A stretch of DNA of 64,000 nucleotides, from positions 62,001 to 126,000 of the forward strand of contig NZ_SIJK02000012.1 of assembly GCF_004762035.2 (NCBI RefSeq). Direction: 5' to 3'. The notes under the pieces were generated by a model that had not been told where the DNA came from, searched no databases, and saw nothing but the letters and a program-made list of their open reading frames with translations. Of this stretch, positions 2,133 to 27,997 are shown in pieces. Each line of letters opens with the position of its first letter. The first letter of the stretch is position 1. The position numbers and the translations under genes are program-made. Source of the stretch: Candidatus Chloroploca mongolica. Its GTDB lineage: Bacteria > Chloroflexota > Chloroflexia > Chloroflexales > Chloroflexaceae.

Positions 2133-2758
2133 CCCGTCCCAAACTGACGGTCGCCGGCATCACCGAGGCCTGGCACAATGTAGCCAAGCTCATTGAGAAA
2201 ACTGTCAATCGCGGCCAGATGAATATCAACATCCGGATGCGCAGCCGTCAATGCCTGCACACCCTCGGGGGCAGCAATCAACCCGAGAAATTTGATCCGC
2301 CGCGACCCCCACTGCTTGAGAATATCTACTGCAGCCACGGCTGAACCACCCGTTGCCAGCATTGGATCAACGATCAGCGACAGGTCAATATTCGGTTCTG
2401 AAGGCAGTTTATTGTAATACGTAACCGGCTGAAGTGTCTCGTGATCACGATAGAGCCCGAGATGCCACACATGCACGGTGGGCAAAATATCAATAATGGC
2501 CTCAGACATTCCCAGGCCCGCCCGCAGAATCGGAATGACTCCGATGCGATCAGCGACTTCAAAGCCTTCACACGGGGCCAGCGGCGTCTGCACCGTCAGC
2601 GGGGCAAGACTGAGATCTTCCGTCGCTTCATAAAAGAGCAACTGGGCAATCTCGCGCACCAGTTCGCGGAATTTCTTCGGTTCGGTCAGATTGCTCCTGA
2701 GCAAGGCCAGTTTATGTTGAACAAGCGGATGGGTGGAAACAAAGACCTGATCGCCCAT
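2129..2758 (-). CDS. upp: Uracil phosphoribosyltransferase
   Basis: A 209-residue cytosolic enzyme that joins uracil to PRPP to make UMP in pyrimidine salvage. The PRPP-binding loop [10 protein letters not shown] (131-140) follows a hydrophobic strand, [10 protein letters not shown] (79-88) matches the family, and the C-terminal [13 protein letters not shown] is the uracil-binding signature. Length equals that of bacterial Upp. It sits between a response regulator gene (12-nt gap) and a polysaccharide transferase gene (4-nt overlap), probably cotranscribed with both. Confidence 0.96.
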
Positions 2759-2770
2759 AGCTAGGCACCT

Positions 2771-3505
2771 TTACGCTTCAGTGAGTTTATACCCTACACC
2801 TCGAACCGTCGCGATCAACACCGGGCGTGAGGGTACTTCCTCCACCTTCTCGCGCAGGCGTCGTATACAGACATCTACCAGATTCGTCTCGCCCGCATAC
2901 TCGTAGCCCCATACCTCACGAAAAAGTGTCTCACGGTCAAAGACCTGACCGGGATTTGCGGCCAGAAAATAGAGCAATTCAAACTCCATTGGCGTCAGAT
3001 TGACACTCTGCTCGCGGACGGTCACGTAATGGCGTGGTCCATCAATAAAGAGCGGCCCGATCCGCAGTGTAGGTGGGGCTCGTCGCGACTTATAACCCTC
3101 GACCCGACGCAGGATCGACTCGACACGGGCAATCAGTTCCACCGTCTTGAATGGTTTGCGAATATAATCGTCAGCCCCGAGTTCAAAGCCTTGAATGACA
3201 TCATCAGTCCCATCTCGGCTCGTCAGGATCACAATAGGGACATCGCTTTCAGCCCGGATGTGCCGACATACTTCAAAGCCATCAACAAAGGGCATCATGA
3301 CGTCAAGGATGACCACATCAAACGGCTGTTTACGAAACGCCTCGACCGCCTCAAGCCCATTACTAACCGCCGTCAGTTCATAGCGCGGATCACTGAGGGT
3401 GATTTTGATCAGATGGGCGATTGACGGGTCATCGTCGGCGATCAAAATACGCCGGGGGGGGCGTGGATCTTCAACGGCCCGGTCATTTGTACGAAGAAAA
3501 GGCAT
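2771..3505 (-). CDS. OmpR/PhoB-family response regulator
   Basis: A 244-residue DNA-binding regulator. The receiver domain (about 18-135) has the acidic pocket DDD at 24-26, the phospho-acceptor Asp68 in VVILDVMMP, and the conserved Lys117 in IRKPFK. A winged-helix output domain (about 145-244) ends in IATVRGVGYKL. A ~17-residue N-terminal extension precedes the usual start. No kinase gene is adjacent; the gene lies 15 nt after clpX and 12 nt before upp, so expression is tied to the protein quality-control operon and the partner kinase must be encoded elsewhere. Confidence 0.93.
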   Translation of the reverse strand: MPFLRTNDRAVEDPRPPRRILIADDDPSIAHLIKITLSDPRYELTAVSNGLEAVEAFRKQPFDVVILDVMMPFVDGFEVCRHIRAESDVPIVILTSRDGTDDVIQGFELGADDYIRKPFKTVELIARVESILRRVEGYKSRRAPPTLRIGPLFIDGPRHYVTVREQSVNLTPMEFELLYFLAANPGQVFDRETLFREVWGYEYAGETNLVDVCIRRLREKVEEVPSRPVLIATVRGVGYKLTEA

Positions 3506-3520
3506 CCGTATAGAACCTGA

Positions 3521-4831
3521 TCAGACGGCTTCATCAAGACGCCGACGATACTCACTGCGTTCGGTGCGGGGCATCAAGATCGGCAAGCCGCGCCCGTAAA
3601 CAACTTCGGCATTGATAATGCATCGTCCAATATGTTCCTGGGCCGGTACCTCATACATCACATCAAGCAGCACTTCTTCGACAATGCTCCGCAAGGCTCG
3701 CGCCCCGGTACGCGCCTGCATGGCCCGCTCAACAATTGCCTCGATCCCATCCGCAGTGAATTCCAACTCACAATGATCAAGTGCCAGCAACTTCTGATAC
3801 TGCTTGATCACGGCATTGCGCGGTTCGGTCAGAATCCGTGACATCGCGCTATGGGACAACGGCTCAAGGGCCACAACCACAGGCAGGCGCCCAATGAATT
3901 CAGGGATGAAGCCGTAGTGCATCAGATCATCAGGACTGATCTGCGCCACCAGGGCCGCATGATCATCGACGGTGTTCCCTGTCGCCTGGCCACCAAACCC
4001 GATCATTTGCCGACCCCGCAAGCGTTGTGTCACCACCGTTTCAATGCCTTCGAAGGCACCACCACAGATAAAGAGCACGTTCGTCGTGTCAAACGAAATA
4101 TACTCTTGCTGTGGGTGTTTGCGCCCTGGCAAAGGTGGCACATGCGCCACACCGCCCTCAAGAATCTTCAAAAGGGCCTGCTGTACCCCTTCCCCCGAGA
4201 CGTCGCGCGTAATCGAAGGATTATCAGCCTTACGGGCAATCTTATCAATCTCATCAAGATAGATGATGCCGGTCTGTGCACGCTCAACATCGCCATCGGC
4301 AGCCTGGATCAGACGCAAGAGGATATTTTCCACATCCTCGCCAACATACCCGGCCTCGGTCAGCGCCGTTGCATCGGCGATCGCAAAGGGGACATCAAGA
4401 ATACGTGCCAGCGTCTGGGCAAGCAAGGTCTTACCACTGCCCGTTGGCCCAAGCAAGAGGATATTGCTCTTGCTAATCTCGACATCATCAATTTTTGCCC
4501 CGGCGCGAACTCGCTTGTAGTGGTTGTAGACGGCAACTGAAAGCACGATCTTCGCTCGATCCTGCCCAATCACATACTGGTCAAGTTTCTCACGCAACTT
4601 GCGCGGGGCAGGCAAGCGTGCCGGACCGGGCGGTGTATTGCGACGCGGGGCCGCCATCTGCTGCTCGGTCTCTTCGGCAATGATCGCGCTACAGAGCGCC
4701 ACACACTCATCACAGATAAAGACCGTGCCTGGCCCGGCAATCAGGCGCTGCACCTCGTCCTGACCGCGACCACAAAACGAGCAGACATACGCTCCACGAT
4801 TGTTACTACCAGTATTACGAGAACGAGACAT
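3521..4831 (-). CDS. clpX: ATP-dependent Clp protease ATP-binding subunit ClpX
   Basis: AAA+ unfoldase that recognises tagged proteins and feeds them to ClpP. With the start chosen here it is 436 residues. The N-terminal zinc-binding domain has C17-x2-C20 and C40-x2-C43; Walker A is GPTGSGKT (128-135), the pore loop is GYVGED, and Walker B is IIYLDEIDK. The frame extends upstream to a TTG, but ATG at 4831 is preceded by GCGGAG at proper spacing and gives the usual MSRSRN-type start. It lies 98 nt downstream of clpP in the same operon, with a regulator gene following. Confidence 0.97.
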
Positions 4832-25399: not shown

Positions 25400-26509
25400 A
25401 TGAATGATAGGATTATGTTCAAACGTCGGTTGGCCATGCTGAGTCTGGTTCTTACGCTTGCCGTAGTTGCGCTTGCCGGGTGCGGTGCAACCCCTGCTTC
25501 GCCAACGGTGCCTTCTGCCGTTCCAGTTGAGGGCACCATGATCGCCCCAACGGCGGAGGTTTCCGTAGCGACTACCGAGCAGCCAAGTTCTACTCCTGCT
25601 GCACAGATGCCATCTGGTGGACGCCCCGCAGGTGTGATGCCTGGTGGGCCGGGTAGCAGTATGCCTGCCACCACAGCCACCCCCATCGTGAAAGATGCCG
25701 CCTATGCAAATATCTCGACCGCACAGCAACTTGACCTGTATGTTCCTGAGGGTGAAGGCCCGTTTCCCATCATCGTGATTATTCATGGCGGTGGCTTTAT
25801 GCTCGGTGACAAAGCGGATGCGATGGCTACGACGGGTATTGATCAATTGCTTGAAGCGGGATATGCCGTTGCGAGTATTAACTACCGTTTGAGCAGCGAA
25901 GCATTGGCACCTGCACAAATCCAGGATGCCAAAGCTGCTGTCCGCTGGCTCCGTGCGAATGCAGCAACATACCAATTAGACCCCGAGCGTATTGCTGCGT
26001 GGGGCGCTTCAGCAGGTGGAAACCTGGCAGCGCTTTTGGGTACATCGTGTGATGTTGCTGCATTAGAAGGTGCTGAGTTAGGCAACGCAGATCAGTCGAG
26101 TTGTGTGCAGGCCGTGGTGGACTGGTTTGGCCCAACCGATTTTCTCCAGATGGATACTCAATTTGCTGATACAAGTTGTCCGCAAACCCATGATGAAGCC
26201 AACTCACCCGAGTCGCAATTGCTTGGTGCTCCTATTCAAAGCGTACCAGAGCAAGCGCAGCTGGTTAACCCGCTCACCTACATTGATGCCAATGATGCAC
26301 CATTCCTGATCCAGCATGGAACGGCTGATTGCAATGTGCCACCGCAACAGAGCGCCTTACTCTATGATGCGCTTGTGGCGGCACAGGGTGATGAGAACGT
26401 GACCTTTATATCGATTGAAGGTGCTGGTCACGGCGGCGAACAGTTCTTTGATGCCGCCAACTTCCAAGTGGTACTCGACTTCTTTGCTACGCATCTGGGA
26501 AAGTCGTGA
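25400..26509 (+). CDS. Lipoprotein alpha/beta hydrolase (acyl esterase type)
   Basis: A 369-residue exported protein. A signal peptide with lipobox LAGC (Cys about residue 29) implies lipid attachment, then a Pro/Thr/Ser-rich linker to about residue 95. The hydrolase domain resembles the BD-FAE/HSL group: oxyanion motif HGGGF, nucleophile elbow GASAGG, an acidic residue in GTADCNVPP and the catalytic His in GAGHGG. It likely cleaves esters outside the membrane. AGGAGGGG precedes the start by ~13 nt. Divergent from a two-component system that may control it. Confidence 0.9.
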   Translation: MNDRIMFKRRLAMLSLVLTLAVVALAGCGATPASPTVPSAVPVEGTMIAPTAEVSVATTEQPSSTPAAQMPSGGRPAGVMPGGPGSSMPATTATPIVKDAAYANISTAQQLDLYVPEGEGPFPIIVIIHGGGFMLGDKADAMATTGIDQLLEAGYAVASINYRLSSEALAPAQIQDAKAAVRWLRANAATYQLDPERIAAWGASAGGNLAALLGTSCDVAALEGAELGNADQSSCVQAVVDWFGPTDFLQMDTQFADTSCPQTHDEANSPESQLLGAPIQSVPEQAQLVNPLTYIDANDAPFLIQHGTADCNVPPQQSALLYDALVAAQGDENVTFISIEGAGHGGEQFFDAANFQVVLDFFATHLGKS

Positions 26510-26547: not shown

Positions 26548-27534
26548 TTACTCGCCCTCGAGAATCTCAAAGACCATGCTGTGAGGAAGTACCAATGTTC
26601 GTTGATCCAGCAGGTCGTGACGAATCTGGGCCATCTCGATGAGATGGCCTTTTTCATGCTCAACAACCCAGTTGCCTTGATGGGTCAGCGGGATAGTGCC
26701 AAAGATTGTGTGGTGCCCAGTGCGGCGCCAGGCAGCCACCGTCAGACCACGGAGCAGATCGATCGTCTGCACACGACTGGTATGGAAGGCCTCCATGAGA
26801 TCAACAATCAGGTGGGTGCGATAGCGGCCAGCCTGCACCAGGGTTGGCGGATGGGCATTGGGCAACTGCGGGTTATCTGTTTCAAGGATCAACCAGGCCC
26901 GTTCGCGAAAAACCACGTCCATATCCGTCAGATGACCGATCTGCTCTTTGATCGAAGCTGCGCCCACAGCTGGGGTAGCCAGTTGCTCTTCGTTGAGATC
27001 GGCCACCAGAGCCTGGAGGGTTGCCCAGGTCTGCTCAAGTTGACGGACAATCGTATGAGGGCCAAGGGTTCCCATTGACTCGGTGGCACGGAAACTAAGA
27101 AAACCCTCGCGCACCGTCCCACAGACGTCACATGTGGCCGGTGCTCCCTCCATAAGTTCACCGCAACTCCCACAGACGAAGAGATCGCCCATCTCTTCGG
27201 CAACAAGATCGCGGCCTTCGCCAAGAGCCTGGGCCGCCCGTTCGAGCAATTCCCGCGGGAGTGTGCTGATACCTGTCACTGGCCCGGATGCGATCATATC
27301 AGGCTCAAACCCTGCCAGCGCGTGGGCCACATTGAGGCGTGTTTTGCCAACTTCGCCGAGAGCGCGAAAGGCTTGTTCGGCCCGCACCCGCTTCATACTG
27401 CTGAGGGCAGCAAGTAAGCGGGAGACATTGTATTTGCGCTCACGGCGAGCCTGGAGTGACCAGACATAATAGGCTGTGTAGCCCAGGCTGGTACTGCAGA
27501 GCAACTTCCGATAATCTTCTTGATCAGAATTCAT
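26548..27534 (-). CDS. Rubrerythrin-like/DinB-like fusion protein
   Basis: A 328-residue protein with two parts. Residues 1-145 resemble rubrerythrin: a helical region followed by a rubredoxin-like knuckle with C121-x2-C124 and C135-x2-C138. The usual diiron ExxH appears as E53-Q-A-F56, so the diiron site is probably damaged. Residues ~155-328 form a DinB-like four-helix bundle (TIVRQLEQTW start, GHLTDMD, VVEHEKGHLIEM), a fold that often binds a metal through three histidines. Function unknown; thiol or redox chemistry is plausible. It starts 12 nt before the epimerase stop on the same strand. Confidence 0.75.
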   Translation of the reverse strand: MNSDQEDYRKLLCSTSLGYTAYYVWSLQARRERKYNVSRLLAALSSMKRVRAEQAFRALGEVGKTRLNVAHALAGFEPDMIASGPVTGISTLPRELLERAAQALGEGRDLVAEEMGDLFVCGSCGELMEGAPATCDVCGTVREGFLSFRATESMGTLGPHTIVRQLEQTWATLQALVADLNEEQLATPAVGAASIKEQIGHLTDMDVVFRERAWLILETDNPQLPNAHPPTLVQAGRYRTHLIVDLMEAFHTSRVQTIDLLRGLTVAAWRRTGHHTIFGTIPLTHQGNWVVEHEKGHLIEMAQIRHDLLDQRTLVLPHSMVFEILEGE

Positions 27535-27546
27535 GGCTTGCTTGCT

Positions 27547-27954
27547 CTAATGCTGATGTTGTACCAGTTCAGTCAGGACACCCTGGGCACCGGCTTTGGG
27601 ATGCACGAAGGCAACCAGTGTATTGTGGATGCCCGGACGCGCCTGTTTGTCGATCAGCGGAACACCGCGTGCCTGAAGTTGAGCGAGCGAGGCAGCGATA
27701 TCATCAACGCGATAGGCAATATGGTGAATGCCGGGTCCTTTCTCACTTAGAAACTTGGAGAAGGCCGCTTGATCTGAGGTTGGGGCAATCAATTCGATCA
27801 AAGTCTCACCAAGGCGGGCCACCCCGACGGCCATATGGCGATCGTCCAGACTGATGCGCTCCCACTCGGTGATGCCGTAAGCCTGACTGTAAAAAGCAAT
27901 AGCCTCCTCGACATTATGAACAGCAAAGCCAATGTGATCAATAACCGTGAACAT
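27547..27954 (-). CDS. mce: Methylmalonyl-CoA epimerase
   Basis: About 135 residues of the glyoxalase/VOC fold. It interconverts (S)- and (R)-methylmalonyl-CoA for the B12-dependent mutase. IDHIGFAVHNVEEAIAFY at the start, PGIHHIAYRVDDI near the middle and the metal ligands His/Glu (ETLIELIAP) fit the family. The frame is open to 27972, but ATG 27954 is preceded by AAAGGAG at ideal spacing. In this lineage it could serve propionate handling or the 3-hydroxypropionate cycle; the mutase B12 subunit and MeaB genes lie at 44-46 kb. Confidence 0.93.
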   Translation of the reverse strand: MFTVIDHIGFAVHNVEEAIAFYSQAYGITEWERISLDDRHMAVGVARLGETLIELIAPTSDQAAFSKFLSEKGPGIHHIAYRVDDIAASLAQLQARGVPLIDKQARPGIHNTLVAFVHPKAGAQGVLTELVQHQH

Positions 27955-27997
27955 ATGTACTCCTTTGTGCATAGTAACTAGCGCTCAGATACAGGCT

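Follow-up and report, generated by a model that had tools for sequence, protein, structure and literature searches.

A conserved fusion of a rubrerythrin-derived half, a rubredoxin-type Cys4 knob and a DinB-type domain in Candidatus Chloroploca mongolica and related Chloroflexota

The closest described relatives of the two halves of the protein reported here carry one half each. Rubrerythrin and nigerythrin end after their cysteine-bearing knob, and YfiT, 2rd9, BstA and the mycothiol S-transferase MST are chains of 156-184 residues which consist of the DinB domain alone. DinB domains are also found joined to another domain in EgtB, OvsA and SenA, where the partner is of another kind and is located after the DinB part. 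As set out in PMC10950700, DinB/YfiT-like proteins are thiol S-transferases with three histidines, and MST has two histidines and one aspartate.

Compared with these proteins, the gene analysed here combines both halves. The window, i.e., the whole stretch of 64,000 nucleotides that was analysed (contig NZ_SIJK02000012.1, positions 62,001 to 126,000), contains on its minus strand a single open reading frame (26548..27534) for a protein of 328 residues, in which a pseudo-rubrerythrin and a rubredoxin-type Cys4 knob are followed by a DinB domain. This assignment is based on the reading frame, its orthologues and an AF2 model, which reached a mean pLDDT of 85.3 and a pTM of 0.76 for the whole protein and a mean pLDDT of 89.6 when residues 1-152 were modelled alone. 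The protein is 95% identical to the closest named loci, which belong to Candidatus Chloroploca. A sequence-only reading had already proposed that rubrerythrin-like and DinB-like parts are fused in one frame, and this was confirmed by sequence matches to both (DinB_2, E 6e-16). Judging from the sequences compared, the fusion is a conserved but modest oddity; all of its parts are known, and their combination was found undescribed in the literature at the level of titles and abstract starts, where no rubrerythrin-DinB fusion was mentioned. In the following, the conservation of residues is counted over 36 distinct close sequences, and the diiron ligands were aligned with true rubrerythrins in a set of 25 distinct close sequences, the protein of the window being included in both.

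Rubrerythrin ancestry, diiron ligands and the Cys4 knob

The N-terminal half is homologous to rubrerythrin by sequence: its ferritin-like helices, of which helix 3 is mostly missing, lead into a rubredoxin-type domain. Its helical part, residues 1-115 (27190..27534, minus strand), is modelled with helices at residues 3-31, 35-58, 65-74 (short) and 91-105. The homology is drawn from sequence matches, and the fold is used as support. First, P. furiosus rubrerythrin was matched over residues 12-148 when the window protein alone was searched with phmmer (E 8e-8), and it was matched at E 6e-19 by the profile of the fusion family. Second, residues 1-76 of the model were superimposed on 1nnq at 1.3 A (Z 7.2, 76 aligned) in a fold search, and the half as a whole was closest to nigerythrin (Z 11.4, 127 aligned, 3.6 A), with ferritins at Z 6-7. 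The queries of these searches were the complete model and, separately, residues 1-152; Z values of 7-11 are weak on their own for helical bundles, and families missing from the fold lists may still match. The half has no Pfam match above cut-off, RUBY_RBDX reaching E 0.018 (14.9 bits against the 26.5 needed). The Pfam model Rubrerythrin (PF02915), which recognizes the true rubrerythrin L137 at E 4e-26, was absent among the matches of the window protein up to E 1, from the tally of the 27 alignment members at E<=0.1 and from the entire genome of the window. Separately, PF02915 was observed in several relatives (G009, G020, G024, G004 and others; loci L075-L084) within open frames of 364-479 codons, where it is probably joined to something else.

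The position of the diiron ligands was then read from the alignments. The sequence-only reading had taken E53-QA-F56 for an altered ExxH motif of helix 2. Residues 53-56 do read EQAF, but phmmer, the profile and a joint alignment with six Chloroflexota rubrerythrins all pair ExxH with K48-RV-R51 (27382..27393, minus strand), five residues before E53, and the former assignment was rejected. Position 48 is lysine or arginine and position 51 arginine or lysine in all 36 close sequences. In the window protein, the glutamate of helix 1 corresponds to T15, the glutamate and histidine of helix 2 to K48 and R51, and those of helix 4 to S90 and P93; in addition, helix 3 has a deletion of about 20 residues relative to rubrerythrins. 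Not one of these five ligands is kept in any of the 25 close fusions, whereas the six rubrerythrins keep 41 of 42 ligand cells in the same alignment. At the first glutamate position of helix 3, the window protein has D79, and an acidic residue is found there in 23 of the 36 sequences; this is a possible remnant ligand, but the pairing, which borders on a 20-column deletion, is unreliable. The altered diiron site was thus borne out, and the change is larger than had been described, since it comprises five ligands and most of helix 3. A full set of diiron ligands was also sought by alignment elsewhere in the N-terminal domain; none was found, and a hidden full set in this half is thereby rejected. 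Because the same five ligands are lost in all 25 distinct close sequences, neither chance nor sequencing error explains the losses, and a recent change in the genome of the window is excluded. Among the 11 distant fusions read, the helix-1 glutamate, the helix-2 histidine and the helix-4 glutamate and histidine are each absent throughout (0/11), and the helix-2 glutamate position is still glutamate in four. As far as the alignments tell, the rubrerythrin-type diiron site is gone from the N-terminal half.

The cysteines are all preserved. The rubredoxin-type knob (residues 118-148, 27091..27183, minus strand), which was delimited by RUBY_RBDX and the AF2 models, has strands at residues 118-121, 127-129 and 145-148, and it carries C121-GS-C124 (27163..27174) and C135-DV-C138 (27121..27132). 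The four cysteines, reported as intact in the earlier reading, are indeed present at these positions and, together with G125, in 36/36 close sequences; G139 is found in 33. The window protein thus shows the rubredoxin-type arrangement of two CxxC pairs with a glycine after each. Among three Chloroploca species, residues 118-150 show no amino-acid change (dN 0 in three pairs), and by these measures the knob is the most constrained part of the protein. RUBY_RBDX matches 24 of the 27 alignment members at E<=0.1. Since the window protein stays below the curated cut-off of this model and some alignment members also match zinc-ribbon models, iron and zinc are indistinguishable as the metal of the Cys4 site.

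The constraint on the knob and the rubrerythrin origin of the half are both consistent with a redox or metal sensor, in which the Cys4 site (Fe or Zn) would be oxidised or demetallated under oxygen or peroxide stress and would switch the DinB half, the rubrerythrin remnant being the sensory and not the catalytic part. However, structural zinc knuckles show equal conservation, and no regulator gene is a common neighbour of the f1 and f4 loci compared (the two families that carry close fusions, f1 being that of the window), and we regard a sensor as unlikely.

The DinB half, its histidines and a possible thiol partner

The C-terminal half (residues 155-311, 26602..27072, minus strand) is a DinB/YfiT-type four-helix bundle. 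DinB_2 matches it over residues 165-300 with 59.5 bits against a cut-off of 24.8, and the same model matches all 27 alignment members at E<=0.1. The closest fold is YfiT (1rxq; Z 19.0, 157 aligned, 2.3 A), and further matches were obtained to 2rd9 (Z 17.2), M. tuberculosis MST (8f5v, Z 15.5) and BstA (5wk0, Z 11.0). With a profile match over cut-off and the four-helix fold, this half is ordinary for the DinB superfamily. In family f3, two adjacent DinB-type matches on one strand were seen in six genomes (G026:C30, G029:C78, G035:C2, G038:C1, G058:C1 and G059:C9).

The DinB half keeps its histidines, as the earlier reading had noticed. They are H201 (26932..26934), H293 (26656..26658) and H297 (26644..26646), all on the minus strand, and they form a metal-type ligand pattern in which one helix provides a single histidine and a second helix the HxxxH motif. 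The same reading had suggested that the metal chemistry was moved from the rubrerythrin half to the DinB half, and this finds no support: the three residues align with histidines of the DinB/YfiT proteins 2rd9 and 1rxq. As they are the family's own, there was no transfer; the rubrerythrin half has lost a site, and the DinB half has retained the one it had. H201 is present in 36/36 of the distinct close sequences, H293 in 35/36 and H297 in 31/36, and the complete set in 31/36. The five exceptions have tyrosine at position 297 and come from two genera (three from g4, two from g23), and one of them also has leucine in place of H293. Because one histidine is lost in four of the 36 sequences and two in one, metal binding through these three residues is not required in every case, and the pattern of losses indicates that the histidine site is decaying in one genus. 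In genus g23, G068 carries a broken copy of the fusion (L092, about 2700-3607) with internal stops and pieces in different frames, and in other members of the genus one or two of the DinB histidines are missing.

Two conserved metal-type sites in one chain raise another reading, in which iron in the Cys4 site would pass electrons to an iron at H201/H293/H297, so that a mononuclear peroxide or oxygen reductase would replace the diiron one. If true, the protein would be a new kind of rubredoxin-driven reductase, with the DinB site substituting for the diiron site that was lost. Both sites are retained in most close sequences, and the fold matches include the DinB domains that are part of the sulfoxide and selenoxide synthases EgtB, OvsA and SenA, which use a histidine-bound iron for oxygen chemistry. 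However, the loss of H297, and once of H293 as well, in five of 36 sequences while the Cys4 site stays argues against this, as does the lack of a redox partner gene common to the loci compared, and we consider such a reductase very unlikely.

We tentatively prefer, with somewhat less than even confidence, to read the protein as a DinB/YfiT-type, S-transferase-like metalloprotein, in which the diiron-free hairpin and the Cys4 knob serve as a dimerisation or regulatory module. Its N-terminus is a shortened rubrerythrin that has lost the diiron site and would do no diiron chemistry. The DinB half would bind one divalent metal, probably zinc, and may activate a small thiol or a related nucleophile, by analogy with YfiT and BstA. 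The remaining helix hairpin with the Cys4 knob, holding zinc or, as in rubredoxin, iron, would join two subunits or tune the DinB site.

Several results count against the S-transferase-like reading. First, there are the histidine losses in 5/36 sequences described above. Second, the window protein reaches no curated S-transferase cut-off; among the NCBIfam models, it scores best with NF009807 (YfiT bacillithiol transferase), at 24.8 bits against a cut-off of 160. The Mycothiol-S-transferase (MST) model matches 24 of the 27 alignment members at E<=0.1, and the window protein is outside those 24. Third, the searches for BshC, MshC and MshB yielded no thiol partner. BshC, for bacillithiol, was found in none of the 41 relatives (0/41; the control was positive in 3/14), and the MshC model has no match above cut-off in any of them. 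The MshB model is above cut-off in 10 of the 41, the genome of the window not being among them. The MshC-like protein of G000, when tested, was above the cut-off for cysteinyl-tRNA synthetase (CysS). MshC in Chloroflexi is not mentioned in the accessible part of PMC2922099.

The CysS/MshC-like genes were also observed in their own right. A match is present in 39 of the 41 Chloroflexales relatives with 327-401 bits to the MshC model (cut-off 485), and most relatives have a second one with 244-310 bits; in G036 and G040, the lower-scoring match is the sole one. In G000, the gene lies at G000:C55:114461-115570 (L144 4962-6071, minus strand). These may be two CysS-like paralogues, one of which may act as a cysteine ligase for a small thiol.

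Distribution, selection and gene neighbourhood

A close match (E<=1e-70, no internal stops) was found in 50 of the 158 genomes of the class, 30 in f1 and 20 in f4, of which G067 and G069 cover only residues 1-232 and 3-269. The genomes of f2 and f3 gave no match at E<=1e-12. Beyond these, the reading covered 11 distant homologues whose parts are arranged in the same order: two belong to the class, and nine were taken from the matches listed by a profile search across 400 genomes of the phylum. Each of the nine spans both halves, G174 (residues 130-313) and DinB-only matches being left out, and one of them, L136, starts at the end of its contig. The presence in 50/158 class genomes and the agreement of the 11 distant fusions in part order and ligand loss together indicate that the fusion gene is old.

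A tree of DinB domains groups the 25 close fusions at 100/99, and it splits the 36 fusions, together with one long-branched other DinB, from 13 other DinB domains at 97/88; meeting long branches are flagged in this tree, and the other DinBs are best search matches that are assumed to be single-domain proteins. One old fusion event is suggested, with which the tree is compatible, and the long branches weaken this point.

Selection was estimated from the three Chloroploca species. The dN/dS ratio is 0.07-0.09 for the whole gene, 0.02-0.10 for the helices, 0 for the Cys4 knob and 0.05-0.13 for the DinB part, and the mean identities in f1 are 0.705, 0.739 and 0.673 for the helices, the knob and the DinB part, respectively. 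By these estimates, both halves are under purifying selection, and the half without a metal site is constrained about equally to the enzyme-like half. Here, strong selection has preserved a rubrerythrin scaffold well after the disappearance of its catalytic metal site, beside an intact Cys4 site and a second domain of metalloprotein type. A decaying relic without function would fit the broken copy in G068 and the DinB ligand losses in the same genus, but the frames are open in 50/158 class genomes, none with an internal stop, and the low dN/dS of the whole gene argues in the same direction, making a relic extremely improbable. A link to phototrophy was examined as well and was rejected. Of the 41 relatives, 29 carry the reaction-centre gene (PF00124), but it is missing from G033, which has the fusion, and present in G003, G008 and others, which lack the fusion.

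The gene directly upstream encodes a methylmalonyl-CoA epimerase of 141 residues (27547..27972, minus strand), which ends 12 nt before the start of the fusion and was assigned by TIGR03081 (115.1 bits, barely above the cut-off of 114.95). The neighbourhood to an epimerase gene, pointed out in the earlier reading, holds in f1 and fails in f4. An epimerase gene lies directly upstream on the same strand, with gaps of about 6-534 nt, in all 27 f1 genomes examined (of 30), and it was found within the examined flank in none of the eight f4 genomes examined. The constant position in f1 would suit an accessory protein of the epimerase or of the 3-hydroxypropionate cycle that is made together with the epimerase. 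However, besides its absence from the f4 flanks, G003 (L091) has an epimerase, together with MreB-like, ATP synthase and kinase neighbours, and no fusion, and a strong epimerase match (E<=5e-45) is present in 40 of the 41 relatives (weak in the remaining one) as against a full-length fusion in 21 of 41; G024 was not counted among the true absences, because its contig breaks off close to the epimerase, in the direction in which a fusion gene would be expected. In addition, the f1 loci compared (window, L090 and L101) also have an MreB-like gene, ATP synthase genes and a histidine kinase nearby, some with intervening genes, and conservation of gene order by itself may account for the linkage. 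The link to the epimerase looks like local gene order and not like a fixed partnership, and an accessory role is decidedly unlikely. The accessible part of the C. aurantiacus genome paper (PMC3150298) names an epimerase, Caur_3037, and contains no mention of rubrerythrin or rubredoxin.

Other neighbours were noted as well. On the plus strand of the window, a predicted esterase (25400-26509; BD-FAE, E 4e-71) is the convergent neighbour of the fusion and has no relative among the open reading frames of the 19 other loci compared. A terminator-like hairpin with 10 pairs (26628-26650, plus strand) lies within the fusion gene, in its 3' part, where the convergent esterase transcript could end; it is a consensus match only, and three terminator-like sites were found versus 1.4 in shuffles. 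In the f4 genomes G030 and G033, the gene after the fusion encodes a protein of 233-248 residues without a Pfam match (L087 5837-6538, plus strand; L088 4021-4767, minus strand), and the two proteins are 42% identical to each other.

Comparison with known systems

In conclusion, the fusion can be compared with three groups of known proteins. It is like classical rubrerythrin (P. furiosus 1nnq/3mps) and nigerythrin (1yux/1yuz) in helices 1-2 and in the C-terminal CxxC-x10-CxxC knob, and it differs from them by the absence of the diiron ligands, by the deletion of most of helix 3 and by the DinB domain that comes after the knob, where the known proteins end. YfiT (1rxq), 2rd9, BstA (5wk0) and MST (8f5v) have the same fold as its DinB half, and 2rd9 and 1rxq have the H...HxxxH set in common with it, but the fusion adds a rubrerythrin-derived module in front of the domain, scores far under the family cut-offs of YfiT-type S-transferases and has tyrosine in place of the third histidine in 5/36 sequences. 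Finally, it resembles EgtB, OvsA and SenA, which are fold matches to the DinB half, in that a DinB domain is joined to another domain.
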